Source of the DNA: a virus | Length of the DNA stretch: 62,068 nt | Direction: 5' to 3' (one strand) | IMG/VR virus record: IMGVR_UViG_3300017989_000122 | Location: 1-62,068 of that record | Shown: one piece after another, positions 21,501 to 58,091 of the stretch | Position numbering within the stretch: the stretch's first letter is position 1 | How the letters are laid out: every line of letters starts with the position of its first letter | Made by a program: the position numbers and the translations under genes | The notes under the pieces: model-generated | Databases searched by the model: none | Told to the model about the DNA's origin: nothing | The model's input: the letters and a program-made list of their open reading frames with translations, nothing else

Positions 21501-22580
21501 ATGCCACAGGAAAACATCGAACAAGCCGCCCTTGACTTCATCGTCAACGGTGCCGCGATGGGAGATGCCGCCGCACGATTCCTGGCGATGGGTTGCAACG
21601 CGTCAGCAATGCGCCCGTTTATCGCCGAGGACGGTCGGCCCTACATCACCATCGTGAACGAGAAGGGCGAACTGACGCCCGTGGTCGCCAATGCTGCCAC
21701 TCTCCGCAGGGATGAGTGGAAGGACATCGACGACGCGGTGCTGAAGGCCGCACAAATCCGTATCGGCGGTATCCAGGACCTGCAGTCGATGGGCCTCGTC
21801 AGGAACATCGGCAACGGCCTCGGTTCCACCGTTCTGGAGTATGAGAAAGAATCCGACTTTGAAGATGCGGAAATGACGATGGATGCCATCACCCGCGTCA
21901 ACAAGGACCGCCCGACCTATGACACTGGCTACCTGCCCCTGCCGGTCGTGCATAAGGACTTCTCGTTCTCCGCTCGCGTTCTGGCGGCAAGCCGCCAACG
22001 TGGTCAGACACTCGACACCGCAAGTGCCGAGCTGGCGACCACGAAGGTGCTCCAGAAGTTAGAGGACATCCTGTTCAACGGGACTTCGTCCTATACCTTC
22101 GGCGGCGGGACTATTTATGGTTACGTCGATGCCCCGAACAAGAACACGGTCACCCTGGTTACCAACTGGGATGACAGCTCGAAGACCGGTGCCCAGATTG
22201 TCGCCGATATTCTGGACATGAAGCAGGCGAACATCGACGCCCTCCACTACGGTCCGTACATGCTGTACATCCCGACCGGTTACGAGACCAAGATGGACGA
22301 AGACCACACGTCCGGTTACCCGAAGACGATTCGTGCTCGTATCAAGGAAATCGAGAGCATCGTGGACGTCAAGGTGTCGGACAAGCTGGCTGCCAACAAG
22401 GTAATCCTGGTTCAGATGACCCAGGATGTCGTCCGGCTGGTCCAGGGATTGCCGCTGACTCCGGTCGAGTGGCAGACCGAAGGCAACATGCTCCATCACT
22501 ACAAGATTATGACCATCCAGGTCCCGCAGTTACGCAGCGATGCCAACAGCCGGTCCGGGGTCTGCCTCTTGTCAGCATAG
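21501..22580 (+). CDS. Major capsid protein (HK97 fold, encapsulin-like)
   Basis: 359 residues. The stretch RPTYDTGYLPLPVVHKDFSF followed by LAASRQRGQTLDT and LEDILFNG is characteristic of phage capsid proteins related to encapsulins. The C-terminal half carries the domain with KVSDKLAANKVILVQMTQDV. It follows scaffold and decoration genes and is followed by a strong hairpin. No N-terminal delta domain is obvious, which fits a separate scaffold. Confidence 0.88.
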   Translation: MPQENIEQAALDFIVNGAAMGDAAARFLAMGCNASAMRPFIAEDGRPYITIVNEKGELTPVVANAATLRRDEWKDIDDAVLKAAQIRIGGIQDLQSMGLVRNIGNGLGSTVLEYEKESDFEDAEMTMDAITRVNKDRPTYDTGYLPLPVVHKDFSFSARVLAASRQRGQTLDTASAELATTKVLQKLEDILFNGTSSYTFGGGTIYGYVDAPNKNTVTLVTNWDDSSKTGAQIVADILDMKQANIDALHYGPYMLYIPTGYETKMDEDHTSGYPKTIRARIKEIESIVDVKVSDKLAANKVILVQMTQDVVRLVQGLPLTPVEWQTEGNMLHHYKIMTIQVPQLRSDANSRSGVCLLSA

Positions 22581-22675: not shown

Positions 22676-23686
22676 ATGAGTTCAGTATTTCGATTGACAG
22701 GCGGGACTTTCCGCGATGGTGTAGGCAAAAAGTATGTAGCCGGGGACAAGGTCGAGTCAGATGAGGACTTGGACGAGAAGTTCCCAGGCCAGTTCGAGCG
22801 TTTGTCCGGTCGCCCGAATACCGACCGTAAAGGGTTCGGTCGGACGAAGCTGGAAGCCAAGCAGGGAGAACATGGTTGGGAAGTCATCAATGAGGCCAGT
22901 GGACGGAAGCTCAACGACCTGCCACTGACCGAGGAGCAGGCCCGCTCGTTCATGGATGACTTCGGCGGTGCCGCCAAGCGGTTCTTCCACTGCCCGCCAA
23001 TCTGGCGTGGTACCTGCTTCATCATCGGCGGCGGTCCATCCCTGAAGGGGTTCAAGTGGCAGTTGCTGAAAGGCCAGCGGGTCATCGGTTGTAACGATGC
23101 CTACCAGCTGGGAAGCTGGGTCGATGTCATGCACTATGGTGATGAAGGCTGGTTCGATAACTGGTACAAGAAGAAAATTGGACGCGAGAGTTTACGGAAG
23201 TTCCCCGGCCTGAAAACATGTAGTTGTGTTTCGCACTTGCACATTCCCGATGTCAAGGTGTTCCGACGACTGAACCATGGCATCGAAGGAATTGAGAGTC
23301 GATGGGAGTTGGCATGGAACCAGTCTACAGGGGCACAAGCTATCAATCTGGCTATCCTGTTGGGGGCACGTCGAATCATCCTACTCGGTTTTGATATGAA
23401 GCCGGAGGGTGAGGACAATAACTGGCACTCGAACTCGATTCATAAGGCCAACCCGGACGTCAATGCCAGGCATCTGCGTTATATCAAGACCTTCCTGATG
23501 CCGGGATTGCTGAAACTGAAGGAGCATCCGTTATACAAGGACCTCGAAGTCCTCAACGTGAAAACTGACCCGGAGAGTCCACTGGATTGTTTCCCAGAGA
23601 CCAACTTGAAGGACGAGTTGGGCATCTCAACAAAGAAGGCGGAAGCGAAAACGGAACCGAAGAAAAAGAGTCGGAGGACAAAGTAG
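22676..23686 (+). CDS. DUF115-like putative glycosyltransferase with extra N-terminal domain
   Basis: 336 residues. Residues 1-95 form a small domain (KKYVAGDKVESDEDLDEKF) that resembles short proteins often encoded next to major capsid genes. Residues about 110-320 are a Rossmann-like domain with FIIGGGPSLKGF near 115-126 and AINLAILLGARRIILLGFDM near 225-245, as in DUF115 / CstII-like sialyltransferase-fold proteins. The last 20 residues are Lys rich. It is the first gene of a six-gene sugar island. A nucleotide-sugar transferase role is likely by fold and context; donor and acceptor are unknown. Confidence 0.6.
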   Translation: MSSVFRLTGGTFRDGVGKKYVAGDKVESDEDLDEKFPGQFERLSGRPNTDRKGFGRTKLEAKQGEHGWEVINEASGRKLNDLPLTEEQARSFMDDFGGAAKRFFHCPPIWRGTCFIIGGGPSLKGFKWQLLKGQRVIGCNDAYQLGSWVDVMHYGDEGWFDNWYKKKIGRESLRKFPGLKTCSCVSHLHIPDVKVFRRLNHGIEGIESRWELAWNQSTGAQAINLAILLGARRIILLGFDMKPEGEDNNWHSNSIHKANPDVNARHLRYIKTFLMPGLLKLKEHPLYKDLEVLNVKTDPESPLDCFPETNLKDELGISTKKAEAKTEPKKKSRRTK

Positions 23687-24291
23687 TGCGTCCAACAATT
23701 AGGCCATTCTTGCAGTTGTTAAACGACCTCGAAGCGCCTGGGGACTTTATGGAACTGGGCGTTTACCAGGGGGACTCCTTCGTGGAACTCCTCGAGGTTG
23801 CCAGGAAACGGCCGGATAAAGGCCGTGTTTGCCATGCTGTGGACTCCTTTCGGGGAATGGCCCAACCTGGCAAGGAGGATGGCGGGCAGGGCAGTGGATA
23901 TCCGTTAGGGCGATTTGACCAGGGCGGGTCGCAACGATTCCGGCACAGATTGGATGGGATGGGTTATCGGGAGTCGGAGTACTTCATCCATGAGGGATAT
24001 GTTCCGGCAATCCTGAATAACATCGAGTCTGAGTTGGTTCTTGGTGCGGCACTCATCGACCTTGACCACTACGAGCCGACAGCTCATGCACTGAAGTGGG
24101 TGTGGGCCAGATTGCAGATTGGTGGGTTGCTGATTTGTGATGACTACTTCCCGAAGCTTGGCAATATAAAGGGATACGCACACAAGGCCGTCCATGAGTT
24201 CGTGATGCTATATCGCGACCGCCTCGACTTAATGATGAGTGGCAATGATGGACGGACACATGCCTTTCGGAAGTTGGAGGAACCGCAATGA
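23686..24291 (+). CDS. TylF-like SAM-dependent O-methyltransferase
   Basis: 201 residues from GTG 23686, which overlaps the previous stop (TAGTG) and has GGAGGAC upstream. The SAM motif is FMELGVYQGDSFVELL. The acidic motifs HAVDSFRGM and LIDLDHYEPT, then CDDYF, match TylF/macrocin O-methyltransferases, which methylate sugar hydroxyls using a metal ion. Context in the sugar island supports methylation of a glycan. Confidence 0.75.
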   Translation: MRPTIRPFLQLLNDLEAPGDFMELGVYQGDSFVELLEVARKRPDKGRVCHAVDSFRGMAQPGKEDGGQGSGYPLGRFDQGGSQRFRHRLDGMGYRESEYFIHEGYVPAILNNIESELVLGAALIDLDHYEPTAHALKWVWARLQIGGLLICDDYFPKLGNIKGYAHKAVHEFVMLYRDRLDLMMSGNDGRTHAFRKLEEPQ

Positions 24292-27173
24292 CGAAGCAGG
24301 AGCCCTTCAATGTTATGTTGGTTTGCCGGAGTGGCGGTGATTATACCTTGTCCGATGTGTTCCTGATTGCCAAGAAGCTTAAGGAAATCCATAAGGAGGA
24401 GGTGCGGGTCATTTGTCTGAACGACAATTATAATCGGACTGCGTACCATCCGAAGTGTTTGTTCCTGCCGCTCCGTGGTAACGAGCCGGGATGGTGGGCG
24501 AAGATGAATCTATTTCGTCCATCACTGGAACGATTCCGGCCTTTTCTTTACATGGACCTCGATACCATGGTCCTCGGTGACTTGCGACCGATGCTGAAGA
24601 AAATCAATAGGAACCGGTTTACGATGCTCACTGACCTATACGAGGAAATCCACGGCCCCAGGGCGGCCAGCGGAGTGATGTGGTTTCCTGCCGGTAGTGG
24701 GGCGGTGTCTCGCATTTGGCAGAGGTGGGATAAAGACCGCGTGGAGGCCATGAAGAAGTTGCGCGGCGACCAGGACTTCATCGCGTCGGTCGAGGAACCG
24801 GAGGCGCGATTCCAAGATGACGTGCCGGGACTGATTGTTTCTATCAAGCCCCTTGACAAAAACAAGAAACCAGAACTGCGTGAGGAAAGGCCGGGGGGTG
24901 CCGTACTGTGCTGTTTGCATGGCAAGCCGCGTTTGGAGCAAGCGGCACAGAAACTTTTATGGGTGGCGAAATACTGCGGTCGCGAGTTCACGTACGAGAA
25001 GCGTGAGGAGCCTGATGACAAGTCGAAGGTGAAGCCGTCCACAAATATGCTACTGAAACTTGCTGGGAGGCAGGACGCGCCGGTCAATCTTGGGCCATGG
25101 TTCTCCATCCTTTGTCCGACCCGGGGACGACCGGAACTGGCGAGGAGGATGGTCGAGAGTGTTTATCGAACGGCGGCGCTCCCGCAACAAGTAGAAACTT
25201 TCATTTACGTTGACTCCAATGATGAGTACTTGGACGGTTACTTGTCCCAACTCGACCACTTGCCATGCCATGTAATTGTCGGTCCATCCGACCGGGGTTT
25301 TGCACCAGAGGATATTGGAGTCGATAAGATGGGGATTGCTTGGAACCAGATGGCGCGGATGGCCAGCGGTCGGTACCTGATGATGGGTAACGATGACTTG
25401 GTTTGGGAAACCAAGGACTGGGATTTGACTATGCTCCATCGCCTTTGGAAAATTCCTGACCAGATTTTCCTGGCCTGGGCCGATGACGGTATCAATGGTA
25501 GGGAGCATTGTGCGTTTCCAATTGTTAGTCAGCGTTGGGTATATGGGAACAATGGCGAGTTTGTTCCCGAGTGTTTTCAATTCTTATACCATGACACTTG
25601 GCTGTTCGATGTGGCAAAGAGAATGGACCTGCATTTCAAGAACCATTGTAAGAAATGGTGGTACGGTGCTGGCTACGAGCGACTTATCTACTTTGATAAC
25701 ATTAAGATTAAGCACGACCATTGTGGTGATAGTCGCCCTGTTGATGACATTCATAAGTTGAACCGTAGGGGCAGGATGGCTAAACATGATAAGGAGGTTT
25801 TCGAGTCGAAGTATGCTGATGAGCTTCGTACACAGCAGCGGGCCAACCTGGAATCATGGTCGGTCATCCCTTGCCAGAACTATGGGGACGAGGAGTTGGG
25901 TAAACTATTCCACGGTAAGCGGGTCGCGCTGGTTGGACCATCGCCGCATCTGCAACGCCATGGTAAGGGAGGTGAGATTGATGGCTACGACTGCATCTGC
26001 CGGGTCAATGAGGTCTACCCGTTCGGACTCGAGGCCGACTATGGGTCCAGGACGGACGTCGTATTCCACACGTGCAATCCGGTCAGCGTATCCCAATTCC
26101 AGAAGGGGATGGGGCGTTACGTCAAGGATGGTTTGCCACCGTTCAAGGCTTTTGTGCGAACCAATCCTGGGATGCGATTTTCGGAGGATGACTTCGTACG
26201 GGAAGTGCTTCGGCATTTTCCCGACTGCCCCCTGGCAAAACTGAACGCAATTCACTTTGACTTGTACTTCCATCAGGTGGGTTCCTTCCCGAACACCGGT
26301 ATCCTGGCCTTGCTAATGATTGCCAACTACAAACCGAAGGAACTACTGCTGACCGGATTCTCCTTTTATGCACAAGGGATGGACCCAGAAGCGCGGCATC
26401 ATAAGGCATACATCGAGTGGGGTGGTGATAATATTTACAATGAGAAGGATGGTGCGAAGTATAAAGGCCACCCACAGGAGCCCCAGCGTGACTGGTTTAT
26501 CCAGCATTTCCTGCCGACTTATGGCAACATGATTCGCTTGGACTCATACTTGGCCGACTCGTTCAATTTGAAATTCAAGAACGTCCTAGACTTGAAGTCT
26601 TTGTCAAAGGAAGCGAAGAAGGCAATCGAGACGTGGAAGGGTGCGTATGGTATGAAGCATCAGTACCGAGGGAGTGACGAAGAGTGGCCTGACAAGGATG
26701 GTCCTGACTTGGTTCGTTACTTCGTCGGTGAGGGGAAGGTTTGTGATGTTGGTTGCGGTATTGGCAGGGTTGCACCATTGTTTGAACCGGATAGGTACAT
26801 TGGCATTGATATCAACGAGAAGGCAGTTGTGAGGGCGAGGAAGGAAATCCCCGACCATGACTTTGAAGTTGTAGAGCATGGTGAATATCCACCGGCAGAT
26901 ACTTACTTGTTCCATACAGTTGCCCTTCATATCCCTGATGATGAACTGCCGAACGTCGCATCTCGCTTACGGGGTCGCGTGGTCATCTTCGAGTCAATGG
27001 ACCGTTCGTTGCGGAATGGCGGTGTTAATTATCAACGTAACCCGGAGGAATACCAACAAGTATTCGAGGAAGCCGGATTCACGATGCTACTTCATTCGCG
27101 ACAACCAAGTAGCATCAAACCAGGATTCCGTGACTACATGGTTTTCCAGAAAGAGAAGGAAGCAGCAAAATGA
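24288..27173 (+). CDS. Four-domain glycan enzyme: two GTs, GT29-like sialyltransferase, methyltransferase
   Basis: 961 residues, start coupled by ATGA. Domain 1 (about 1-200) looks like a GT-A fold with a DLD metal motif at 90-92 in YMDLDTMVLGDL. Domain 2 (about 268-500) is a GT2-like GT-A domain (FSILCPTRGRPELARRMVES, later MMGNDDLVW). Domain 3 (about 540-760) has a sialylmotif-L-like stretch VALVGPSPHLQRHGKGGEID then CRVNE, a motif-S-like stretch FPNTGILALLMIANYKPKEL then LTGFSFY, and H705-x4-E710 as in motif VS of GT29 sialyltransferases. Domain 4 (about 800-961) is a class I methyltransferase with CDVGCGIG at 819-826. It probably builds and caps a short glycan. Substrates are unknown; the GT29 call rests on motifs only. 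Confidence 0.72.
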   Translation: MTKQEPFNVMLVCRSGGDYTLSDVFLIAKKLKEIHKEEVRVICLNDNYNRTAYHPKCLFLPLRGNEPGWWAKMNLFRPSLERFRPFLYMDLDTMVLGDLRPMLKKINRNRFTMLTDLYEEIHGPRAASGVMWFPAGSGAVSRIWQRWDKDRVEAMKKLRGDQDFIASVEEPEARFQDDVPGLIVSIKPLDKNKKPELREERPGGAVLCCLHGKPRLEQAAQKLLWVAKYCGREFTYEKREEPDDKSKVKPSTNMLLKLAGRQDAPVNLGPWFSILCPTRGRPELARRMVESVYRTAALPQQVETFIYVDSNDEYLDGYLSQLDHLPCHVIVGPSDRGFAPEDIGVDKMGIAWNQMARMASGRYLMMGNDDLVWETKDWDLTMLHRLWKIPDQIFLAWADDGINGREHCAFPIVSQRWVYGNNGEFVPECFQFLYHDTWLFDVAKRMDLHFKNHCKKWWYGAGYERLIYFDNIKIKHDHCGDSRPVDDIHKLNRRGRMAKHDKEVFESKYADELRTQQRANLESWSVIPCQNYGDEELGKLFHGKRVALVGPSPHLQRHGKGGEIDGYDCICRVNEVYPFGLEADYGSRTDVVFHTCNPVSVSQFQKGMGRYVKDGLPPFKAFVRTNPGMRFSEDDFVREVLRHFPDCPLAKLNAIHFDLYFHQVGSFPNTGILALLMIANYKPKELLLTGFSFYAQGMDPEARHHKAYIEWGGDNIYNEKDGAKYKGHPQEPQRDWFIQHFLPTYGNMIRLDSYLADSFNLKFKNVLDLKSLSKEAKKAIETWKGAYGMKHQYRGSDEEWPDKDGPDLVRYFVGEGKVCDVGCGIGRVAPLFEPDRYIGIDINEKAVVRARKEIPDHDFEVVEHGEYPPADTYLFHTVALHIPDDELPNVASRLRGRVVIFESMDRSLRNGGVNYQRNPEEYQQVFEEAGFTMLLHSRQPSSIKPGFRDYMVFQKEKEAAK

Positions 27174-28456
27174 AAATTGGTTTTATTGGACTCGGTAAGC
27201 TTGGCCTCCCATGTGCGACTTGTGTTGCCATGAAGGGGCACAAAGTCAAGGGATATGACCTCGACCCATCACGGATGAGTCACGAGCCACAGCCATATCA
27301 GGAAGCCGGTCCATTGGGTACAGGGGACTTCAATGATATCCTGGGTTCCCAGGAGGTGAAACGTAACCTCACTTTCGGGACAGTGGAGGAGGTGGCCCAC
27401 TGGGCGGACATCATCTTCATCGCGGTACAAACGCCACATGACGCGCAGTATGAGGGTGTCACGCGGATACCGATGGAGCGCCGGGACTTCGACTATACCT
27501 ATCTCATCAAGGCGGTCAGTGAGTTGTCAAAACATTTGCTGGAGCGAGGCTCGACTGCCATCGTGACCATCATTTCCACCTGCCTGCCTGGAACAATGGA
27601 ACGATGTGTCCTGCCACTACTGCCGCAAAACGCACGACTCGTTTACAATCCATTCTTTATTGCTATGGGGACGACGATGCGTGATTTCCTCGACCCGGAG
27701 TTTGTACTTCTGGGTGGCAACGATAAGGAAGCAATGAACGAACTGGAAGAGTTTTACAAGACACTCCATGATGCCCCCTGCGTTATGATGAGTTTGCCAT
27801 CAGCCGAGTTGACGAAAGTGACATACAATACTTTCATCAGTTTCAAGATTGCGTTCGCGAACACAGTCATGGAAATCTGTGACCAGATTCCCGATGCCGA
27901 TTGTGATGATGTTGTCGAGGCACTGATGAAGGGGCATCGCCGTATCATCTCACCGGGTTACTTGCACGGTGGCATGGGTGATGGAGGCGGTTGCCATCCT
28001 CGGGACAACATCGCCATGAGTTGGCTGGCACGGAAGTTGGGGCTGTCCTTCGATTTGTTCGACGCGGAGATGAGATGCCGTGAACGGCAGGCGGACTGGT
28101 TGAGGATTATCCTCAGCTATCACCGCAATACGACCGGCCTGCCCGTCGTCATTCTGGGATATTCGTTCAAGCCGGAAACCAATCTTACCGTTGGTTCCCC
28201 GGCCATCCTCGTTCAAAACTTGTTGAAGGAGGAAGGAGTCAGGCCTATCATGGTTGACGAGCATGTCAACCCTGACGACAAAGAGTGGATTTCCATCCCG
28301 GCTATCTATCTCATCGGTTGCCGTCATCCCGAATACGCGGAGCGGCAGTTCCCCGATGGCTCAATTGTCATTGACCCACACCGATATGTTTGTAAGCAAC
28401 TCGCTGACGTGAAAGTTCATCGACTTGGACAGGGAGAACCTGATGCCATCAAGTAA
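27170..28456 (+). CDS. UDP-glucose/GDP-mannose 6-dehydrogenase family protein
   Basis: 428 residues, ATGA-coupled to the previous gene. N-terminal NAD motif GFIGLGKLGLP at 4-14. The catalytic Cys is C275 within GGMGDGGGCHPRDN, the conserved loop of this family. The C-terminal UDP-binding domain begins near VVILGYSFKPETN. Such enzymes oxidise a UDP-hexose to a UDP-uronic acid. It would supply an acidic sugar donor to the transferases of the island. Confidence 0.85.
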   Translation: MKIGFIGLGKLGLPCATCVAMKGHKVKGYDLDPSRMSHEPQPYQEAGPLGTGDFNDILGSQEVKRNLTFGTVEEVAHWADIIFIAVQTPHDAQYEGVTRIPMERRDFDYTYLIKAVSELSKHLLERGSTAIVTIISTCLPGTMERCVLPLLPQNARLVYNPFFIAMGTTMRDFLDPEFVLLGGNDKEAMNELEEFYKTLHDAPCVMMSLPSAELTKVTYNTFISFKIAFANTVMEICDQIPDADCDDVVEALMKGHRRIISPGYLHGGMGDGGGCHPRDNIAMSWLARKLGLSFDLFDAEMRCRERQADWLRIILSYHRNTTGLPVVILGYSFKPETNLTVGSPAILVQNLLKEEGVRPIMVDEHVNPDDKEWISIPAIYLIGCRHPEYAERQFPDGSIVIDPHRYVCKQLADVKVHRLGQGEPDAIK

Positions 28457-29105
28457 TCCAATCTTCATCACTGGATGTCAGCGCTCTGGCCTTTCCATGG
28501 TCGCCGGTGTCTTCGATTGTTGTGGTGCATGGCTCGGCGTCAATGGTGAACGGGGACCGAGGCAGGACGCGTTCGAGAATGTCCGGTTGACCGATGGACT
28601 GGTATTGCCATATTTGCAAATGACGGGACTGCCGGAAAACGGTTCTTGCCCTGTACTATCAATGATAAAGGGCAATCATTGGATTATGCCGAAGTGGGCA
28701 GAAAGGGTCGGTGAGGTCCTAGGCGAGCGCCGGACTGAGGGCGTATGGGCATATAAGAGTTTCCGTATTGCCCTGATGTGGCGGCAGTGGGCACGGGCGT
28801 TTCCTGGTGCGTGGTGGATTATTGTGCGCCGTAACCAGGCCGACCTGGCGAACTCGTGCATCAAAACAGGATACATGAAACAGTTTCAGTCACTGCCAGA
28901 TTGGGTCGACTGGGCCGAAGGATGGTCATCCTTATTGGATGATGTCGAGGCAAACATTCAGGACAGCATTTATTGCGTTTGGCCTTTCAAGTTTTTCCAA
29001 GGAGATTTGTCGGAGATTCGTGGGGCGGTAGAGGGTAGTGGACTGACATGGAATGAGGAGGCAGTTCATAACTTCCTCCCGGCACTGAAAGAAGGGAGTA
29101 AATAG
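28443..29105 (+). CDS. Sulfotransferase-like protein
   Basis: 220 residues from ATG 28443 (GGGAGAACCTG leader; a start six codons earlier is weaker). The P-loop-like FITGCQRSGLSMVAGVFDCC is like the 5'-phosphosulfate loop of PAPS sulfotransferases. A second conserved region WWIIVRRNQADLANSCI fits the 3'-phosphate site with its Arg and Ser. It probably transfers sulfate to a glycan made by the neighbouring enzymes, or is a P-loop relative with another role. Confidence 0.65.
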   Translation: MPSSNPIFITGCQRSGLSMVAGVFDCCGAWLGVNGERGPRQDAFENVRLTDGLVLPYLQMTGLPENGSCPVLSMIKGNHWIMPKWAERVGEVLGERRTEGVWAYKSFRIALMWRQWARAFPGAWWIIVRRNQADLANSCIKTGYMKQFQSLPDWVDWAEGWSSLLDDVEANIQDSIYCVWPFKFFQGDLSEIRGAVEGSGLTWNEEAVHNFLPALKEGSK

Positions 29106-29106
29106 T

Positions 29107-29463
29107 ATGGCTACCTGCACCAACGAAGGCACTCCGAGGATTGCCGGACAAACCTGGATTATCAGGATGGACTGGCCTGCCGGGGTTCTCACCACTGACT
29201 GGTCATTTCGCAGTACATTGAAAACCAACATCGACGATGACGATGAGGATGCCGTACTCCGGTGGGACCACGATGTGACGGCGGCAGAAGTGGCAAGTGG
29301 GGTCGTGCGCGTGGAGTTTACCAATGAGGAAACCGCCGACTTGGAAGGGGACTACTATCACGATATCAAGTTGAAGGACGCGGATGGAAATCGTGGCTGG
29401 GTTCGTTCGCCTACACTCGTCCAGTTCATCAAGCCGGTCACCCAGCGGACGGAGGCAATATAA
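29107..29463 (+). CDS. Small structural protein, fibre-associated
   Basis: 118 residues. Beta-rich with a repeating strand pattern (WSFRSTLKTNIDDDDEDAVL, then GVVRVEFTNEETADLEGDYY), like small beta-sandwich baseplate or fibre-attachment proteins. Its stop overlaps the fibre start (TAATG), so the two are co-translated. Confidence 0.6.
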   Translation: MATCTNEGTPRIAGQTWIIRMDWPAGVLTTDWSFRSTLKTNIDDDDEDAVLRWDHDVTAAEVASGVVRVEFTNEETADLEGDYYHDIKLKDADGNRGWVRSPTLVQFIKPVTQRTEAI

Positions 29464-32400
29464 TGGCTACTGCGTTTGAAATAATCAAAGTTGCGGTTGG
29501 TGATGAGGAGTACACGGTCAGTATTGGAGATGAAGCTTATCCGGCACTGATAGGACCGCAGGGTGAGCCAGGCGAAGCCGGTGGCGTTGTAGGCCCTAGT
29601 GTTTCCGTTGACAATCGTATTGTCCTGTTTAATGGGACCACCGGCAACCTCATCAAGCAATCGGCACATGATGAAACCGACCTTGACAATTTCCTTGCCC
29701 ATCTCACCGACACCACCAACCCTCATAGCGTTACGGCGGCACAGGCTGGGGCGGACCCCACAGGAACGGCGGCGGGCTTGATGTCCACTCACGAGGCAAC
29801 CTACGACCATGCCGATATTGCACTCAATACAACCCACCGTAATACCGTTACAGGCAATCCTCACGCCGTAACCAAGAGTGATGTGGGGTTGGGGAATGTC
29901 TTGAATGCGGCGCAGTTGGCGATTGCCAATGACCTGTCCGACCTAAATGATGCTCCTACAGCCCGTTCCAACCTGGGCTTGGGGAGCATGGCTATCATCA
30001 ATGATGCTCCAAGTGATGGGAAGACCTATGGTCGGAAGGACGGGGCGTGGGAGGAAATCGAGGCAAGTGAGATTGCTAATGCCATCCATGCCGCCACGGG
30101 GAAGACTACTCCGGTCAGTGCCGATGAGTTGGCATTGGTTGACAGCGAAGCCTCCTGGGGCCTCAAGAAACTGACATGGGGCAACCTACAGTCAACTCTT
30201 GAAACTTACTTCGATACACAGTACGATGCCATCAACACGGCGTCCGGCCTGATGACCGCCCACTTGGCGGCATACGCCCACGGCGATATCACTCTTAACA
30301 CTTCCCACCGTAATACGACTTCTGGCAATCCTCACTCCGTTACCAAGTCCGATGTTGGCTTGGGGAACGTGACCAATGATGCACAGTTGAAGATTGCCAG
30401 CGACCTTGCCGATTTGAACGATGCGGCAACGGCCAGGACCAATCTTGGGTTGGGTGGCATGGCCGTGCTCAACGATGCCCCCTCGGACGGAACGACTTAT
30501 GGACGGAAAGATGCCGCCTGGGTTTCCATGGTGACCTCGGTGGTATGGGGAGCCATTACCGGAACATTGTCCAACCAAACTGATTTGCAGAATGCCCTTG
30601 ATGCCAAACTCACTGCGGCCAGCAACTTGTCAGATGTCGCTAGTGCCGCCACGGCCAGGACCAATCTTGGCCTTGGGACACTAGCGGTTATTGATGACGC
30701 CCCCAGCGATGGCAATGTGTACGGGCGCAAGGACGGGGCATGGGAAGCGGTGGACGAGGCGGAGGTTGCCGCCGCCATCAATGCCGCTTCGGCAAAGACC
30801 ACTCCGGTTGACGCCGACAGGTTTGGCATCACCGACAGCGCGGCCTCGTATGCCTTGAAGCAGTTGACCTGGGCAAATCTGCTTGTTGGCGTCAAGGCAG
30901 AAACTGACATTGCTTCGGCGATTTCCTTGAAGCACACGCAGGGAACGGACCTTGGTTTGGACACAGGCGGTTCAAATCCAATCACCGCCGCCACCATCAA
31001 GGGCCATGTCGAAACCACTTCCGGCAATCCTCATAACGTCACCAAGTCGGACGTTGGCCTCGGCAATGTCACCAATGATGCACAGGTCACTTCCGTAACG
31101 GCGAGCGGGGCATTAAATTCTTCCGGTGGCACCACGCCGGACATCTCGCTGGATAATGTCAATACCCGGTACACGTTGGGCAACACAACGGCATTTCCGG
31201 CCCCGCCATCCGCCATTGCGTTCAGCACCTTGGTCGAGCAGGCAATCGGCCATGCTTCCGCAAAGACCACCCCGGTCGATGGTGATAGCATTGGCCTCGT
31301 GGATTCCGAGGACTTGGCGCAGTTGAAGGAAGTTACCTGGGCGAATGTCAAGGCTACGCTCAAAACGTACTTCGATACGGTGTACCAAGGAACAGGTTTG
31401 GCATTGCTCATCGCCAACAATCTTTCGGACCTCAATGATGTTCCTACGGCCCGTTCCAACCTGGGTCTCGGTTCTGCAGCTGTTGGGGATGCACAGTCGG
31501 CGACGCTGACCGCACCGTTGACAAGCACACAGGCTTTTAGCGTCATAGGGTCTGCCGCCCCCACCATTTCGATGCCTGCGGCGACAAACGCCAACGACGG
31601 CTATGCCACTTCTTCGCACATCCAGGCCATCGAAGCGAACACTTCGGCCATCAGCGCACTCGGAACGATGTCCACGGTGAATGATGCTCCGAGCGATGGC
31701 AGTTTCTATGGTCGCTTGAATGCCGCATGGGCAGACTCAACCAACATTACGGCGGTTGGTACTCTCACCTCGTTGACCGTCAGCGGGGATGTAACGTTGT
31801 CCGGCGCGGCAAGCCAACTGTTTCTGCCGCAGGTCAACGATGCCACCAACCCGACGATTGCCTTCGGTGATGGTAATACTGGATTCTATGAAGATGCTGA
31901 TAATCAGTTATGTGTCGCTATTGGTGGGGTAAAGAAGTGGACTTTTTATGCCAGCGTTGCCCAATGTGAAGTTGTTGCTGGTTCTCCTCGCCTAAACACT
32001 ACCAATACACCATCAGCGACAGTTCCAACATATCAATTCTATTCCGACGCCGACACCGGCATTGGCCGTGCCGGAGCCAACCAGTTATCGCTGATTGCGG
32101 GCGGCGTTGAGAACCTACGGCTTACCACTACCACGATTGAGGGATTGCTCCTTACTGCGGATGCCAACAACGTCCGACTCGGAGCCAACGCTGGCAATGA
32201 CTCAATGACTTCCGTTCGCACCGTAGTGATTGGCGTGGGTGCAGGAGAATCATTGACCGATGGCGACAACAATGTAGCCATCGGAGATGAGGCGTTGGGT
32301 GATGCCACCTCTGGATATAATAACATCGCCATTGGTCGTGAAGCACTAGAAGTCCTTATCACCAACGCCAACAATGTCGGCATCGGCTATCAAGCTGGTA

Positions 32401-34370
32401 AATATGTTACAGGTAACACTAACGTTGCTGTTGGTACTCTTGCGCTGGCTGGTTCTGCTGGTCATTCATCGACCAATAATGTTGCTGTTGGCGACCGAGC
32501 CTTAAGCTCAGCCAATGGTTGCTATTACAACGTGGCAGTCGGTGCATATGCGGGGTTTGGAATTACCACGGCTCGTCATGCGATAGTCATCGGCGAATAC
32601 GCTGGCAAGCATGAAACCACCAACTTTGGCCGACTGCACATTGACGCTTACGGAGATGACCGTTCCGACTTGGCTGATAGCGAAGCCAATGCAATCATCT
32701 ATGGTGTAATGACTGCCGCCGGAAAAACCACCCAGACACTTTCCCTGAATGCTCAAGTCACCATCGCTCGTGGCTTAACGGTTAATAACGATGCGGCGGC
32801 AGTCAACTTCGTGGTCAATCGTGTAACTACCGGAACAGCATTTGAGTATAACGGGACAACCGATTCGATTGAAGGTGACTTCATCACGGCGAACACCGAC
32901 AACACTCTGCTGGGTGTCAGTGCTGGTGGTAGCATTACGAGCGGCGTGAACAACACGCTAATCGGTGAAGAGGCTGGCTCGAACATAACCGACACAAGCA
33001 ACAACACTTGCGTAGGATATCAAGCAGGAAACGGAAGCGGCGTTGCACAGATTACGGCGTTTGGAAAAGGCGCAGGCAGACAATGTACTGGATTGCTTGG
33101 TACATTTGTTGGGATGAATGCAGGAACCCAAACCACTGGACAGGACTATGTGGTCTACGTTGGCGAGGAATGCGGCGTCAATATGCGAGGCGACCGCAAT
33201 ACGGTAGTCGGCGCATCTGCGCTCTATGGTAGTGGAACTCCCGCAAGCAATACTGGCAGTTACAATACTGTGATGGGTTGGGAGGCGATGGGTGGCGCAG
33301 TCACTACTGCTTCGTATAATACTGTCATAGGTTACAACGCGGGCAACGCATCAACTGCAATTGACCGTGGAATTTTCCTTGGTGCGTATGCTGGCAAGTA
33401 TGAAACCGTTGGTGGTAAGTTGTTTATCGATTCGTATGACCGTAGCACCGAGGCGGGAGCCCGTTCCAATTCCATCATCTACGGCATAATGGCTGTGGGC
33501 GGTGCCACCAGCCAGCAACTATTCTTGAATGCGGAAACCTACATCAACACCTCCGTCAATTTCCATTGCAATTCCTTCTCGACCTATGGGGCGGTTGCAG
33601 GGATTGGATTTAACAATCCTATTCTCGTTGACGACATTGACGAAAACACTCTCGACCACGGCGTTGAGGTTGAAGGGTTGGTCATTAAGGACAGCGGCTT
33701 TGCCCTCGGCTCCGATGCGGACGGCGACATCTACTACCGTGGCAGTGGAGCATTGGCGAGACTTGCAAAGGGAACTGGCTATCAACATCTTCGCATGAAC
33801 AGCGGGGCCACCGCTCCTGAGTGGGCCTCACTGCCGCCGGGAACCGTGTACGTTGACGTAGGCGCAATGGTGCCAGCCAGCACTGAGGGAGCCACGGCTA
33901 CTCAGGTCGAAACCGCAACGTACAAGCATTACTACGATGTGATGTCGTTCGATGGTGGCGCAAGCGATACCCATTGTGACTTCAAGTTGCGGATGCCAGA
34001 GGATTGGGACGGTGGCACCATCAAGGTGAAGGCTCTGTGGGAGCCGGCGGCAGGGGCCAGTGCCGATGACTGGATTCGGCTTGACGTACAGGCTGTGGCC
34101 TTGGGCAATGACGATGCCATCGATGCCGCCTTCGGAACGGCGGTCTACCTTGACGACCAAGTGATTGCCGTTGGCGACTTGCACGACACGGGTGCCAGTG
34201 CGGCATTGACTGTTGCTGGTTCGCCAGCGGCGGGTGACGTGATTCACTTCTTGATTGGCCGGGATGCTGATTACGATGGTGGTGGCGGCACGGCAATGGC
34301 CGAGGCGTTGCTACTGCACAGCATCGAAATCCAGTACACCAAGACGAACACCCCACCTTCGGCATGGTAA
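29463..34370 (+). CDS. Long tail fibre with phage fibre repeats and YadA-like head repeats
   Basis: 1635 residues, likely a homotrimer. A short collagen-like GPQGEPGEAGG lies near residue 32. Residues about 80-800 hold several copies of the fibre repeat NPHSVTKSDVGLGNVTND with LNDAATARTNLGLG linkers and spacer modules. Residues about 900-1350 switch to left-handed beta-roll repeats such as NNVAIGDEALGDATSGYNN, typical of YadA/Hia head domains in trimeric autotransporter adhesins. The C-terminal 180 residues form a distinct beta-rich tip. I see no peptidase S74 chaperone motif. Internal repeats make recombination or assembly error possible. Confidence 0.85.
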   Translation: MATAFEIIKVAVGDEEYTVSIGDEAYPALIGPQGEPGEAGGVVGPSVSVDNRIVLFNGTTGNLIKQSAHDETDLDNFLAHLTDTTNPHSVTAAQAGADPTGTAAGLMSTHEATYDHADIALNTTHRNTVTGNPHAVTKSDVGLGNVLNAAQLAIANDLSDLNDAPTARSNLGLGSMAIINDAPSDGKTYGRKDGAWEEIEASEIANAIHAATGKTTPVSADELALVDSEASWGLKKLTWGNLQSTLETYFDTQYDAINTASGLMTAHLAAYAHGDITLNTSHRNTTSGNPHSVTKSDVGLGNVTNDAQLKIASDLADLNDAATARTNLGLGGMAVLNDAPSDGTTYGRKDAAWVSMVTSVVWGAITGTLSNQTDLQNALDAKLTAASNLSDVASAATARTNLGLGTLAVIDDAPSDGNVYGRKDGAWEAVDEAEVAAAINAASAKTTPVDADRFGITDSAASYALKQLTWANLLVGVKAETDIASAISLKHTQGTDLGLDTGGSNPITAATIKGHVETTSGNPHNVTKSDVGLGNVTNDAQVTSVTASGALNSSGGTTPDISLDNVNTRYTLGNTTAFPAPPSAIAFSTLVEQAIGHASAKTTPVDGDSIGLVDSEDLAQLKEVTWANVKATLKTYFDTVYQGTGLALLIANNLSDLNDVPTARSNLGLGSAAVGDAQSATLTAPLTSTQAFSVIGSAAPTISMPAATNANDGYATSSHIQAIEANTSAISALGTMSTVNDAPSDGSFYGRLNAAWADSTNITAVGTLTSLTVSGDVTLSGAASQLFLPQVNDATNPTIAFGDGNTGFYEDADNQLCVAIGGVKKWTFYASVAQCEVVAGSPRLNTTNTPSATVPTYQFYSDADTGIGRAGANQLSLIAGGVENLRLTTTTIEGLLLTADANNVRLGANAGNDSMTSVRTVVIGVGAGESLTDGDNNVAIGDEALGDATSGYNNIAIGREALEVLITNANNVGIGYQAGKYVTGNTNVAVGTLALAGSAGHSSTNNVAVGDRALSSANGCYYNVAVGAYAGFGITTARHAIVIGEYAGKHETTNFGRLHIDAYGDDRSDLADSEANAIIYGVMTAAGKTTQTLSLNAQVTIARGLTVNNDAAAVNFVVNRVTTGTAFEYNGTTDSIEGDFITANTDNTLLGVSAGGSITSGVNNTLIGEEAGSNITDTSNNTCVGYQAGNGSGVAQITAFGKGAGRQCTGLLGTFVGMNAGTQTTGQDYVVYVGEECGVNMRGDRNTVVGASALYGSGTPASNTGSYNTVMGWEAMGGAVTTASYNTVIGYNAGNASTAIDRGIFLGAYAGKYETVGGKLFIDSYDRSTEAGARSNSIIYGIMAVGGATSQQLFLNAETYINTSVNFHCNSFSTYGAVAGIGFNNPILVDDIDENTLDHGVEVEGLVIKDSGFALGSDADGDIYYRGSGALARLAKGTGYQHLRMNSGATAPEWASLPPGTVYVDVGAMVPASTEGATATQVETATYKHYYDVMSFDGGASDTHCDFKLRMPEDWDGGTIKVKALWEPAAGASADDWIRLDVQAVALGNDDAIDAAFGTAVYLDDQVIAVGDLHDTGASAALTVAGSPAAGDVIHFLIGRDADYDGGGGTAMAEALLLHSIEIQYTKTNTPPSAW

Positions 34371-34371
34371 G

Positions 34372-35082
34372 ATGTACTTATTCAATCGAAGAAAGCATTT
34401 TCGTGAGGCGGGTAAAGCCGTAGGCTCCCTGCTCTGCGAGAGCGGCGGGAGTGCCTACATTGATTGGAGCGACCATGCCGATTGGGACTTCGGCGCGGGC
34501 GACTTCTGTGTGGAGTTCTGGGCGAGGTTCGAGAGTTCCTTTCCGCAAGCCAACAACGCATTGGTCTGTCATGGTGGGCGTGGTAACGACATCACCGATT
34601 ACAATGGCTGGAATATCAAGTACAACACCTCGAACGGATTGTACTGGGGTCTCCGAATCAACAACACCAACTACGACAAGACGTTTGCGTGGACTGCCAG
34701 CGTTGACACTTGGTATCATATTCTGCTGTCCCGTGATGGCACTGACTTGAGGGCTTTCATTGATGGGACACAAATAGGCTCTACTGAAACCTGTAGCGTG
34801 GACATCAACGATGGCGCATACCCATTGCGAATCGGCACGGCGCAGGACTTGACGCAGGACTTCATTGGCAATATCGACGAGTTGCGGATAAGCGATGTCT
34901 ACCGTCAGAACTCCAACTTCACTGCTCCCAGCACCCCGTACTCTGTCGACGGTAACACGTTGTTCTTGTGTCACTTCAACGGGGATGATGAGTCCACCAC
35001 GTTTACAGATGAAACCGGAACCCACGGCGACGCCTTGGTTTATGGCACCGCCGAAGTTGATACCGACATCTACGAGTTCTAA
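34372..35082 (+). CDS. LamG/concanavalin-like lectin-domain protein, likely receptor binding
   Basis: 236 residues from ATG 34372, two bases after the fibre stop. Residues about 25-200 match the laminin-G-like jelly-roll pattern (FGAGDFCVEFWARFES, then WYHILLSRDGTDLRAFIDG and IGNIDELRISDVYR). Such domains bind sugars. Directly after the long fibre, it is probably a fibre tip or receptor-binding protein. The start has only a weak ribosome binding site, which suggests coupling to the fibre. Confidence 0.75.
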   Translation: MYLFNRRKHFREAGKAVGSLLCESGGSAYIDWSDHADWDFGAGDFCVEFWARFESSFPQANNALVCHGGRGNDITDYNGWNIKYNTSNGLYWGLRINNTNYDKTFAWTASVDTWYHILLSRDGTDLRAFIDGTQIGSTETCSVDINDGAYPLRIGTAQDLTQDFIGNIDELRISDVYRQNSNFTAPSTPYSVDGNTLFLCHFNGDDESTTFTDETGTHGDALVYGTAEVDTDIYEF

Positions 35083-54470: not shown

Positions 54471-55828
54471 CCTCCCTCCATACTGAATTTCTCTTTCGCG
54501 TGCCAAGATTCTCCCGGCGGTGACAGCTCGACTTCGATTTCCAGTGGTGTAATAATCCACGACCATGCCTTACGGATGTCCTCGGTCATCACCTGTTCCA
54601 ATATTCCAACAATTTCTGGTATGTGCCTCGGTCGCACGTCCATCACGATTGAGTCATGGATTTGCCCGACGATGCAACGCGGTAGGCCCCTCGACCTCAG
54701 TCCAGCATGGATGTGAATCAGCGACCAGAGCAAGCAATGGAACGCCGCCCCCTGCACCGGGTAGTTGATACAGTCATTCCTGCTCATCAGATTGGAACAA
54801 CGAAACCCGGTTTTGCCTTCGATGAACCCCCGCTTCAAATATTGGGCGTACCAGTCCCGCCTCCATTGGTCATATACCCTGAACCGCCGCCAGAAGTTGG
54901 CTTCAACTTTTGCAATATGCTTTGTGAAGTCTATCAGGTTCCTAATTCCTTTTTTCATCAAGTGCTTCTTCAATGGGACTCCACTTTTGCTTTTCAAGTC
55001 CATCAACTCAATCGCGTTCCATAGTTCCGGTGCACAATCTTCGTAGTACGAACCATAGAACTGTGGGAATACAAACTTATTCTTACCACAGTATCGGATG
55101 TCGGAAGTCATTTCCTCCAATGGAAGGATGTAGCAGTTCGCCGCCTCATCACGATGTAAGTCCTTCGTCGGGTCCTTAATGTAATCCAGCATCAACGGGT
55201 CATGGTGATAGCAAGTCGCTACACGCACTTCGGCTCCATCGTAGTCGCTTTCGAGGAATTGCCGCCCTTTACGTGGGATGAAACATCGCCGGATGGTGCG
55301 CCCCTGTTCCTTGTCACGGATGGGCATGTTCTGGAAACTCGGATTGCTGGCCGATGACCGATACGTGCGGACAAAGTTCAGGGGAAAGTGTGGATGGATG
55401 AATCCGTCGACCATCTCCCGTTCGATTTGTACCAGGTACTGGATTGACTTCTGATGCTTCCGCATCTTGAGTAGGTCGGCGAGGAAGGGAACCTCCTTGG
55501 CCAGCACTTGCAAGCTGGCGGCGTCGACTCTCGGATTGCCTTTCTTCGTATGGTCGACCGGCTTCACACCCAGTTCCTTGAATAGAATCACAGTCAACTG
55601 TGGACCGGAGTCCAGATTCATGTCATCGCCGTATCGCTTCTTCCACTTATGTACACCCTTACTGGCCATCACTTCCCTGCGTGCCCTGTGCATCTTCCGG
55701 CGCGTCCTACGTAGTTGCGTTTGGAGGTATTCTTCGTCAATACGGATACCGAAGTTACTTACATCGGATAATGTCCGTACCCCTTGCAACATGAAATGAT
55801 TGAAGTCGGATAGTCGACTATGCTTCAT
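54467..55828 (-). CDS. DNA polymerase, family A, polymerase domain only
   Basis: 453 residues. Motif A has D195 in LESDYDGAEVRV, motif B spans about 245-259 (RYCGKNKFVFPQFYG) and motif C is QIHDS with H391-D392. The thumb is residues 1-130. There is no exonuclease domain; that lies in the upstream gene, coupled by ATGA. Copies the phage genome with the clamp and loader nearby. The Lys-Asn-x-Phe motif B form is common in phage UDG-polymerases. The preQ0-type base must be tolerated in the template if modified DNA is copied. Confidence 0.9.
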   Translation of the reverse strand: MKHSRLSDFNHFMLQGVRTLSDVSNFGIRIDEEYLQTQLRRTRRKMHRARREVMASKGVHKWKKRYGDDMNLDSGPQLTVILFKELGVKPVDHTKKGNPRVDAASLQVLAKEVPFLADLLKMRKHQKSIQYLVQIEREMVDGFIHPHFPLNFVRTYRSSASNPSFQNMPIRDKEQGRTIRRCFIPRKGRQFLESDYDGAEVRVATCYHHDPLMLDYIKDPTKDLHRDEAANCYILPLEEMTSDIRYCGKNKFVFPQFYGSYYEDCAPELWNAIELMDLKSKSGVPLKKHLMKKGIRNLIDFTKHIAKVEANFWRRFRVYDQWRRDWYAQYLKRGFIEGKTGFRCSNLMSRNDCINYPVQGAAFHCLLWSLIHIHAGLRSRGLPRCIVGQIHDSIVMDVRPRHIPEIVGILEQVMTEDIRKAWSWIITPLEIEVELSPPGESWHAKEKFSMEGG

Positions 55829-57066
55829 CGTTCCAACTCCCTCATTTGTGCATAAGCCAGGCGATGTTCCAACAACGCATCCATACCACAGTAAAGCAGT
55901 AGGTCGTCCATCGGTGCCTTGTCGATGGTATTAAAGGCGTTCGCCCCATCCTCCTTGCTTTCCAGAAACTTTGCCACACTTTTGTTGTAGTCGAAGATTC
56001 CCCATCGTCTAGCCGCCTGGAACTTGACTGATGTAATATTCGGTCGATTATCCAGGATGTGTGCCGCGAGAACAGTATCCCATATCCAGTTCCTTGGCTC
56101 GACGCCCAGGATGACTCGTGACCACTCATTCTCAAACGCGATATTGGCTGCAATCTTTTCGATGTCAGGATTTGCCATCAGTCGGGCAACTGTTTTTTGA
56201 ACGCGGCCGTCATTCATTGGGAAGGCCCACGCACCATCGACCGATGGACTGACGGCACAGGTTACAATGCGGTGGCCCTCCGCGTGGGGTTTGATGCCGG
56301 TCGTTTCGTAGTCAATGGTAATTCGGTCGCCGGCTTTGATACTACGAAGGCACTCGATGATTTCCCGTGGTTCCATCAGTCGCTTGATACAATCCTGTGC
56401 CACTATCATCTTCGGCAACTGTGATTTCTGTTTTGCCAGCCGCGCCACCAGCTTGATATCATCCTGGACTTGTAGGGTTGCCGGGTCGGTGGTCTTGCCA
56501 CGCCGTAGGAGGAACGCCGGATGGTAGGTGGCAACGAACCAACATCCCCGCTCATAGTCTGGAACCGCATAGCCGCGCCAGCGACTGATGCCTCCCAGTT
56601 CCTTACGCCAGCGGCCATCCATCCAGGCGGTCAACGCGACATTGCCGACCAGCAGTACGACCCGGGGTTTTAGTTCTTGGACTTCGCGCAACCAAAACTC
56701 CTTACAGGTTTTGATTTCCCGTCCGGTCGGCGTCCGATTGTTAGGCGGACGGCAGCGGATGGCATTGGTGCGCCAGCAGTCCATATCCATATTGAGGCCG
56801 GCTCGCCTCATCATCTGCCGAAGGAGGGCCCCAGAACCGCCCACCAAGGGCACCCCCTGGGCATCCTCGGCAGAACCCGGGGCTTCGGCCATGATGAGCA
56901 GTCGATGCCGTCCTTTGCCGTAGTGAGGCATCTTCGGCGAGTGGCATCCGGTCAAGAGTGTGCATGACTCGCCGCAGGTCAGGCGAGCCGCCCGTGGCGT
57001 CCTGGCCTTCCTCGTCCCGGTGCGCCGCTTGGCCTTTTTCGGGAGTTTGAAGAATCCGGTTCCCAT
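55825..57066 (-). CDS. Uracil-DNA glycosylase fused to 3'-5' exonuclease domain
   Basis: 413 residues. Residues about 25-210 are a family-4-type UDG: cysteines at 31, 35 and 41 plus later ones for a possible Fe-S cluster, AEAPG at 60-64, and the HPA motif at 182-184. Residues about 245-413 are a DnaQ-like exonuclease with D252-x-E254 (DYETTG) and a final YCGMDA motif. Known phages carry UDG-exo-pol in one chain; here the polymerase is a separate gene. UDG activity may remove uracil during replication or may be structural. Confidence 0.82.
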   Translation of the reverse strand: MGTGFFKLPKKAKRRTGTRKARTPRAARLTCGESCTLLTGCHSPKMPHYGKGRHRLLIMAEAPGSAEDAQGVPLVGGSGALLRQMMRRAGLNMDMDCWRTNAIRCRPPNNRTPTGREIKTCKEFWLREVQELKPRVVLLVGNVALTAWMDGRWRKELGGISRWRGYAVPDYERGCWFVATYHPAFLLRRGKTTDPATLQVQDDIKLVARLAKQKSQLPKMIVAQDCIKRLMEPREIIECLRSIKAGDRITIDYETTGIKPHAEGHRIVTCAVSPSVDGAWAFPMNDGRVQKTVARLMANPDIEKIAANIAFENEWSRVILGVEPRNWIWDTVLAAHILDNRPNITSVKFQAARRWGIFDYNKSVAKFLESKEDGANAFNTIDKAPMDDLLLYCGMDALLEHRLAYAQMRELER

Positions 57067-58091
57067 CACTCATCCTCATCCTTGAACAAACTGATTGCGT
57101 AGGTAGCATCGTCATGTTGGACGAGCATCCGGTCGGTACCGACGAGAACTTCGTTGCTCTTGTCCACAACCATCAGGAGGAGTTCGGGTTGTACTTGGAA
57201 TTGGAGGGTGTCCTTGAACCGCGTCCGTAACGTTTCCTCTACCCATCCTTTTTCGCTCTGTGCCCTGATGACAAGTTTGCCACCAGCGAACTTTACCAGT
57301 ACGCGTTCATCCTGTTTGAACTCGGCAATAGAAAATATCTTGGCCCGCTCGACTGATTGTAACAAGGTGGACGGGAATCTGACTTGCTTCATGTCCTTCG
57401 TACGTTTCAAGAACGGGGCAAGGTCAGGATACTTGTCATTCGTTTTCGTTTGTCGTGTCCCGATTCCTACCTTCTCTTCAGTGCGAAGGTGGAACCAACC
57501 ATCCTTGCCTACCATGTACTGTGTGACCGGATACTCAATCAGTTCTGATATGACATGTGCCGGGATGAGGAGTTCCTTACTGACCTTACCGCATGGCACG
57601 CGTACCATCTGGAACCCATCACAGGCCTCCACAAATGTTTCCTTGACGTGGACGGCCGTCAGTTCAGGCCGTGCCAAACTATTCGTCGCATACTGATAAC
57701 TGGTGGCCAGGCCTTCCACCAATCCCTTCGGCACTTTCTTCCAGGCACCTTTCAAGTTGATAAACTTGTCCACGGGCAACGTGACTTCTGCATCCATCCG
57801 CACACCTGCTTTGGTTCGTTTACCGCTGATGAGGAGTTCACCCTTCCCCATTTCCAGTTCGACCTCATCATCTTCCATTCTGTCAAGGAGTGTCAGCAGT
57901 TCTTCGGCTGGCACCGCGCCTTCCAGGCCCTTCGTTGGCAGTGGTGCCTGGACATAGAGCAGGTCGTTATAGGAGTGTACAAATCCCTTGCGGAATATAA
58001 ACGAACTGGATTGTTCGACGATTTCTTTCGATGCAAGTCCAGGTTGTACGATGGTCAGCATGCGCCACAATTGCTCCCGGTTGACTTTCAT
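57066..58091 (-). CDS. Sliding clamp (DnaN-like)
   Basis: 341 residues, GAAGGAGAAG leader. Repeated beta-alpha-beta clamp domains (ELLTLLDRMEDDEVELEMGK, later KFAGGKLVIRAQSEKGWVEE) as in bacterial beta clamps, though divergent. Ends KDEDE. It should tether the polymerase and is loaded by the gene at 52169. The start overlaps the preceding small gene. Confidence 0.8.
   Translation of the reverse strand: MKVNREQLWRMLTIVQPGLASKEIVEQSSSFIFRKGFVHSYNDLLYVQAPLPTKGLEGAVPAEELLTLLDRMEDDEVELEMGKGELLISGKRTKAGVRMDAEVTLPVDKFINLKGAWKKVPKGLVEGLATSYQYATNSLARPELTAVHVKETFVEACDGFQMVRVPCGKVSKELLIPAHVISELIEYPVTQYMVGKDGWFHLRTEEKVGIGTRQTKTNDKYPDLAPFLKRTKDMKQVRFPSTLLQSVERAKIFSIAEFKQDERVLVKFAGGKLVIRAQSEKGWVEETLRTRFKDTLQFQVQPELLLMVVDKSNEVLVGTDRMLVQHDDATYAISLFKDEDE

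Follow-up and report, generated by a model that had tools for sequence, protein, structure and literature searches.

A four-domain phage protein with a GT29/GT42-like sialyltransferase-fold domain, predicted to build and cap a glycan and encoded in a capsid-linked cassette

The viral record IMGVR_UViG_3300017989_000122, a linear contig analysed over its whole 62,068 bases (hereafter, the window), encodes a protein of 961 amino acids (aa), P0001, in which two glycosyltransferase (GT) domains of the GT-A type, a sialyltransferase-fold domain and a class I S-adenosylmethionine (SAM) methyltransferase are joined in one chain. This architecture, proposed in an earlier sequence-only reading, was confirmed by the open reading frame (ORF) and by domain matches. 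With somewhat better than even confidence, we regard P0001 as a phage-encoded, multi-step glycan-building enzyme, which would cap its product from a cytidine monophosphate (CMP)-activated sugar and act, most likely, on a virion glycan. Judged by its terminase, portal, capsid, tape-measure, family A DNA polymerase and RecA-like genes, the window derives from a tailed phage.

The third domain (domain 3) exceeded the curated cut-off of the Pfam GT29 family PF00777 (30.6 vs 23 bits, aa 542-606, covering the L-motif) and reached porcine ST3Gal1 as a single sequence (phmmer, E = 7.5e-4). P0001 was matched at E = 2e-57 by a profile that comprised the 41 other members of the family and from which the window had been left out. 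A chance motif match was rejected, as none of 1000 shuffles of P0001 appeared with this profile at E ≤ 10; furthermore, the L-motif DNA pattern, with zero occurrences expected by chance in the window, was found once. The AlphaFold model of aa 523-786 had a predicted local distance difference test score (pLDDT) of 87.8 and a predicted template modelling score (pTM) of 0.89. All 44 Foldseek matches in PDB at E ≤ 0.001 were GT29 or GT42 chains, with Cst-II (2x62) on top, i.e. at this threshold the structure search returned sialyltransferases only. Template modelling (TM) scores to these matches were about 0.5, which in model terms indicates the same fold at a distant relation. A DUF115/MptE (PF01973) identity was rejected, since neither domain 3 nor its family matched PF01973 and the fold matched only weakly, to 8sbu.

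The profile of all 42 members reached ST3Gal1 (2.9e-12), ST6Gal1 (6e-10) and ST8SiaIII (5e-7). It also reached Cst-II of GT42 (1.4e-5) over nearly the full length, a match obtained with the family profile only; none of the 42 members matched the GT42 Pfam family. Domain 3 thus combines a GT29-type L-motif with a catalytic half resembling GT42, and by sequence and model comparison we place it between the two families, referring to it as GT29/GT42-like. It was not filed as strict GT29 because of its HxxxxQ VS-like motif, its differing motif III and a Thr at the apparent position of Cst-II Asn51. Of the sequence-only reading, the sialyltransferase-type domain and the candidate catalytic His are retained, and the affiliation to GT29 is modified.

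The L sialylmotif is present in domain 3. The S-like stretch (PNTG...TGFSFY) is devoid of the animal Cys, and the profile match to animal enzymes ends near its start. Motif III is represented by a RHHKAY region instead of HYY, with Tyr as the commonest residue at position 704 (His in 10/42 members), whereas the VS-like motif reads HxxxxQ and not HxxxxE, with His728 kept in 34 and Gln733 in 35 of the 42 members. Asp568, Arg572, Gly586, Thr589 and Asp590 are invariant (42/42). Of the sialylmotifs noted earlier, the L-motif is recovered, and S-like and VS-like stretches, the latter with its His, are present with the departures just given. A C-terminal-half profile aligned GFSFY with GIDFY of Cst-II and GH(728) with Cst-II G187-H188; it should be added that against Cst-II alone this profile gave E = 0.03-0.08 and that the alignment leans on the full-length match, too. 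Tyr694, aligned with the Tyr of GIDFY, is kept in 35/42 members, so that by fold and by C-half alignment domain 3 possesses residues matching both His188 and Tyr156 of Cst-II. His188 is the established general base of that enzyme (PMC4202792), and the His required for catalysis in the sequence-only reading finds its candidate in His728. Neither of the two findings that would have refuted that reading, a fold unlike GT29/GT42 or a missing His, was thus obtained.

Single-sequence searches with domain 3 gave no match in viral contigs, phages or plasmids. Relatives were gathered with a degenerate DNA pattern of the L-motif on viral contigs (18 loci), followed by alignment and rescan. The rescan yielded 52 viral loci and 8 loci in bacterial genomes, a ratio that is indicative only, since the viral and bacterial scans used different derived patterns; the bacterial loci match mostly over the L-motif only. 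PF00777 was matched by 42 of the 42 aligned members at E ≤ 0.01. Taken by its sequences, this is an undercharacterised and mainly viral family. Separately, five viral contigs (L015, L016, L017, L018 and L024) carry more animal-like GT29 domains that group apart from it, with motif III reading HYY in L015, L016 and L024. Moreover, in actinobacterial genomes (Cellulosimicrobium, Sediminihabitans, Microbacterium; L083-L086) we observed proteins of 839-1318 aa with a GT29-type L-motif.

A CMP-sugar synthetase (PF02348) is encoded in 38, and NeuB in 22, of the 48 viral records with domain 3-type domains (window counted). The synthetase usually lies less than 2.5 kb from the domain 3-type gene, often at 3-20 bases. 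Positions were computed for 36 contigs, a subset that omits four contigs without synthetase: 34 had the gene, within 5 kb in 33/34, and in contigs longer than 30 kb it lay within 5 kb in 22 of 23 (median gap 1.4 kb). None of 23 control tailed-phage contigs, picked by other genes and somewhat shorter, had a synthetase (Fisher p about 3e-11, contigs not being fully independent). A uniform background as explanation of this linkage was rejected by these controls and by a position test (p about 2e-12, near-duplicate contigs included). The synthetases scored best against models of PseF (pseudaminate) or KdsB (3-deoxy-D-manno-oct-2-ulosonic acid, Kdo), all below curated cut-offs, and the NeuB proteins against NeuB/NnaB, also below cut-off. 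Because of these family-wide neighbours, the donor of the family is probably a CMP-ulosonate (Kdo or nonulosonate), its kind not being fixed; with KdsB-like or PseF-like synthetases linked to the family, CMP-Kdo or a CMP-nonulosonate appears likelier than N-acetylneuraminic acid (Neu5Ac) as such. For P0001 itself the link is indirect, since the fused clade is mostly without synthetase, and from this absence in the window and most fused relatives we infer that its enzyme uses host-made CMP-Kdo or a similar donor.

As for the remaining domains, domain 1 matched the PHROG glycosyltransferase phrog_1962 (aa 8-228, 2.4e-34), was related to PmgQ/HdmD proteins of P1-like phages (tblastn) and had fold matches to LARGE1, GlyE, LgtC and glycogenin (Foldseek). 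Domain 2 matched another PHROG glycosyltransferase, phrog_14945 (aa 273-509, 6e-33), with an under-cut-off score of 18.3 bits to the GT2 model PF00535 and Foldseek matches of the K4CP/SpsA type. The model of aa 1-515 (pLDDT 80, pTM 0.50) matched LARGE1, K4 chondroitin polymerase (K4CP) and LH3, which each combine two GT-A domains, along with GT8/GT2 enzymes. In domain 4, aa 815-894 matched several class I methyltransferase models of Pfam, none of them above cut-off (4.6e-5 to 1.7e-3), among them PF13649/PF13847/PF08242/PF13489 at 4.6e-5 to 1.5e-4, and the domain is 41% identical to a stand-alone methyltransferase gene of a related phage (L030:11894-12469).

Five divergent contigs, the window, L027, L028, L030 and L034, carry the GT2-GT29 core as a fusion, with relatives being 34-43% identical to the window; domain 2 alone, used as a scan query, found no relatives. 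In L027 domains 1 to 3 are likewise joined, at 43% identity over aa 5-760. L028, L030 and L034 possess two tandem GT29-like domains, L030 with an additional GT42-like domain at the N-terminus; the tandem copies mostly keep a His near the VS position, where the second copy of L034 has DYQAKQ. Phylogenetically, the N-terminal copies group together in a single clade (99/98); the window domain joins the C-terminal copies with moderate support (96/67). GT-A1 and methyltransferase are separate neighbouring genes in other contigs. It might be argued that errors of assembly or sequencing have in part created the four-domain chain, by running two adjacent genes together at the edge of the methyltransferase, as the methyltransferase is fused in one record only and the homology of its separate L030 relative starts near that protein's N-terminus; however, the three-domain fusion occurs independently in L027, the frame is open through the junction and the next gene is coupled by 4 nucleotides, which makes this explanation very unlikely. 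The ORF is coupled on both sides, its ATG overlapping the preceding stop codon, and its stop the following start, by 4 nucleotides each.

In every fusion-bearing relative read, the gene cassette lies directly downstream of the major capsid protein (MCP) gene. Its contents vary, with genes for uridine diphosphate (UDP)-sugar dehydrogenase, sulfotransferase-like, TylF-like and radical SAM proteins coming and going. The MCP is 43-59% identical across 12 contigs, and further contigs found by MCP hold other contents in the same slot; by its gene content, the MCP-adjacent region can be described as a swapping, capsid-linked glycan cassette. The gene following the MCP in the window is a second sialyltransferase-fold gene: a single-sequence PDB search with it gave no match, and Cst-II was found only via its family profile (4e-7), which also matched MptE-like models of Pfam. 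Counterparts follow the MCP in relatives and, in L030, are fused to the GT2-GT29-GT29 chain. A radical SAM-like gene with a Cys-rich CNLNCSYCS motif was observed immediately 3' of the tandem fusions (L028:8256-9212, L030:7491-8522, L034:7548-8573); it is absent from the window cassette. Coordinates of the features are summarised in Table 1.

Table 1. Positions of P0001, its domains and motifs, and genes of the capsid-linked cassette (window coordinates unless a contig is named)
Feature	Coordinates	Strand	Basis or remark
Four-domain protein P0001, 961 aa	24288..27173	+	ORF open over 961 codons, ATG start
Domain 1, aa 7-230, GT8-like GT-A glycosyltransferase, YMDLD (DxD-type) motif	24306..24977	+	PHROG, tblastn, Foldseek
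Domain 2, aa 266-515, GT2-like GT-A glycosyltransferase, NDDL motif	25083..25832	+	PHROG, Pfam, fold matches
Domain 3, aa 523-760, GT29/GT42-like sialyltransferase-fold domain	25854..26567	+	PF00777, family profile, AF2, Foldseek
L-type sialylmotif, aa 543-590, GKRVALVGPSP...ID.YD...RVN...DYGSRTD	25914..26057	+	
S-like motif, aa 668-694, PNTG...ELLLTGFSFY	26289..26369	+	
VS-like motif GHPQEPQ, aa 727-733	26466..26486	+	His728, candidate catalytic base; Gln733 where animal enzymes have Glu
Domain 4, aa 777-961, class I SAM methyltransferase	26616..27170	+	Pfam models, stand-alone gene of a relative
MCP, cassette anchor	21501..22580	+	phrog_771, virion structural, 6.7e-30
Upstream cassette gene, GT42-like/DUF115-like sialyltransferase-fold domain (aa about 101-320)	22676..23686	+	phrog_4603, 6e-27
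TylF-like methyltransferase, likely GTG start at 23686 (ORF lister: TTG 23587)	23686..24291	+	PF05711, 1.5e-10
Nucleotide-sugar (UDP-glucose type) dehydrogenase	27170..28456	+	Pfam; TIGR03026 over cut-off; phrog_9148, 1.6e-79
Sulfotransferase-like protein	28443..29105	+	PF13469, E 0.0036, under cut-off; conserved cassette member among relatives
Tandem GT29-like chains	L028:5119-8256, L030:3820-7491, L034:4525-7548		

From these features we infer the activity, donor, order of steps, acceptor and virion target as follows. Domains 1 and 2, as GT-A enzymes using nucleotide sugars, would extend the acceptor. Domain 3 would then add a 2-keto sugar of acidic nature, either Kdo or a nonulosonic acid, from the CMP-sugar in an inverting, metal-independent reaction, in which His728 would serve as general base and Tyr694 would lie close to the departing phosphate. 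Domain 4 would methylate the product. The UDP-sugar dehydrogenase, the TylF-type methyltransferase, the GT42-like and the sulfotransferase-like proteins may supply uronic acid, further decoration and perhaps sulfate. The glycan would most likely reside on a virion protein from the adjacent late genes, the virion being preferred as target because of the gene position. The assembly-line enzyme put forward from sequence is thus a fair deduction from fusion and cassette, with its activity, acceptor and virion glycan standing as predictions.

Several points weigh against this proposal. The window and three of the four other fused-form contigs are without CMP-sugar synthetase, L027 alone having one, KdsB-like and 7 kb away; the Glu of the VS motif is replaced by Gln; the position of Cst-II Asn51 seems to be Thr in the window and Asn in most relatives (alignment judged by eye); and the methyltransferase fusion occurs in the window record only. 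With the paucity of linked synthetases in the fused clade and the apparent loss of the Asn51-like residue, domain 3 might have lost or changed its activity, acting on another nucleotide sugar or as a binding or scaffold domain that presents acceptors to the GT-A domains; the fold also covers MptE-type diphosphokinases, which were weakly matched (Foldseek ranks 48-49). We consider this unlikely, as Asp568, Arg572, Asn574, Asp584, Gly586, Thr589, Asp590, Tyr694, His728 and Gln733 are all kept and the His near the VS position persists in most tandem copies of the relatives.

Two further points against concern the target: no acceptor or localisation signal was found for P0001, and modification of host surface glycans is the role presumed for many glycosyltransferases of phages (PMC7029224). 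The foremost alternative retains the same enzymology and directs it to the host surface, whose lipopolysaccharide (LPS) or capsule would be remodelled during infection, e.g. to exclude other phages. CMP-Kdo and CMP-nonulosonate pathways serve bacterial LPS and capsule. Glycosyltransferase clusters of pelagimyophages, accompanied by UDP-glucose 6-dehydrogenase, were indeed interpreted as host O-chain modification (PMC7029224). We nevertheless hold this alternative to be rather improbable, though a serious contender, since in each relative read the cassette immediately follows the capsid gene and belongs to the structural module, a place of late gene expression, and since the genes examined included no recognisable membrane protein of the kind involved in O-antigen conversion.

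Other genes of the window deserve mention. On the minus strand, 55825-57069 encodes a single chain combining a uracil-DNA-glycosylase-superfamily domain with a 3'-5' exonuclease domain and adjoins a separate family A DNA polymerase gene, and 60071-61632 carries GTP cyclohydrolase I and QueC genes, which suggests 7-deazaguanine DNA modification in this phage. A fibre-like protein of 1635 aa with fibritin C-terminal matches (29463-34370) is followed by a concanavalin-like lectin-domain protein (34255-35082).

The novelty expected from the sequence-only reading has to be narrowed, as GT29-type sequences were already known in prokaryotes and viruses: a 2018 paper described 23 GT29s from bacteria (PMC5811610), the label 'Glycosyl transferase family 29' is given automatically in UniProt to an uncultured Caudovirales protein, and animal viruses carry host-derived sialyltransferases. 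A literature search on phage GT29/sialyltransferases and phage nonulosonate pathways found no description, which, being confined to open-licence full texts, is weak evidence of absence; the literature searched contained no account of the viral family bridging GT29 and GT42, of its association with CMP-sugar genes or of the multi-domain fusions. GT42 forms an isolated cluster in a published network (PMC5811610). The known enzymes of GT29 and GT42 are almost without recognisable sequence link, and the profile of the viral family, reaching both, could help to place the root of animal-type sialyltransferases. The recurrent CMP-sugar synthetase and NeuB neighbours make a phage ulosonate/nonulosonate glycosylation pathway directly testable; moreover, the capsid-adjacent cassette points to glycosylated virions, and the compact four-domain enzyme may serve glycan synthesis. 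Phages may thus build and cap their own acidic glycans. More tentatively, and in our view rather doubtful in its full extent, tailed phages could own an acidic-sugar capping pathway, in which an ancient, mainly viral GT29/GT42-intermediate family, residing beside phage CMP-Kdo/CMP-nonulosonate genes, became, in one capsid-linked lineage, part of fused assembly-line enzymes that make and cap a virion glycan and in some cases contain the domain twice in tandem.

In comparison with known systems, domain 3 shares with CAZy GT29 (animal ST3Gal/ST6Gal/ST8Sia and bacterial enzymes, PMC5811610) the L-type sialylmotif, a PF00777 match over cut-off, the GT-A variant fold and a downstream candidate catalytic His, but differs in having no S/L disulphide Cys pattern, no HYY in motif III and HxxxxQ in place of HxxxxE, and in being fused and viral. 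To CAZy GT42 (Campylobacter Cst-I/Cst-II, Pasteurella 9c08) it is linked by the top Foldseek match and by the alignment of Cst-II GIDFY and GH(188) with GFSFY and GH728, whereas its GT29-type L-motif is absent or weak in GT42. The BFVD entry A0A6J5NLG3, 'Glycosyl transferase family 29' of an uncultured Caudovirales phage, is a phage protein of the same predicted fold (Foldseek 1e-7), yet of 492 aa and with an automatic name only, the comparison being by fold match alone. Multidomain Kdo-capping O-antigen enzymes of the WbbB type (PMC9587256), which transfer Kdo from CMP-Kdo onto a glycan, are analogues by function only, as they are bacterial, of another fold and retaining with a double-displacement mechanism. 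Finally, Maf flagellin nonulosonate transferases (PF01973 central domain, PMC11339370) glycosylate a structural protein with nonulosonic acids by means of a Cst-II-like domain and are comparable to the upstream GT42-like gene of the cassette, although their domain set is different and domain 3 is not a member of them by sequence.

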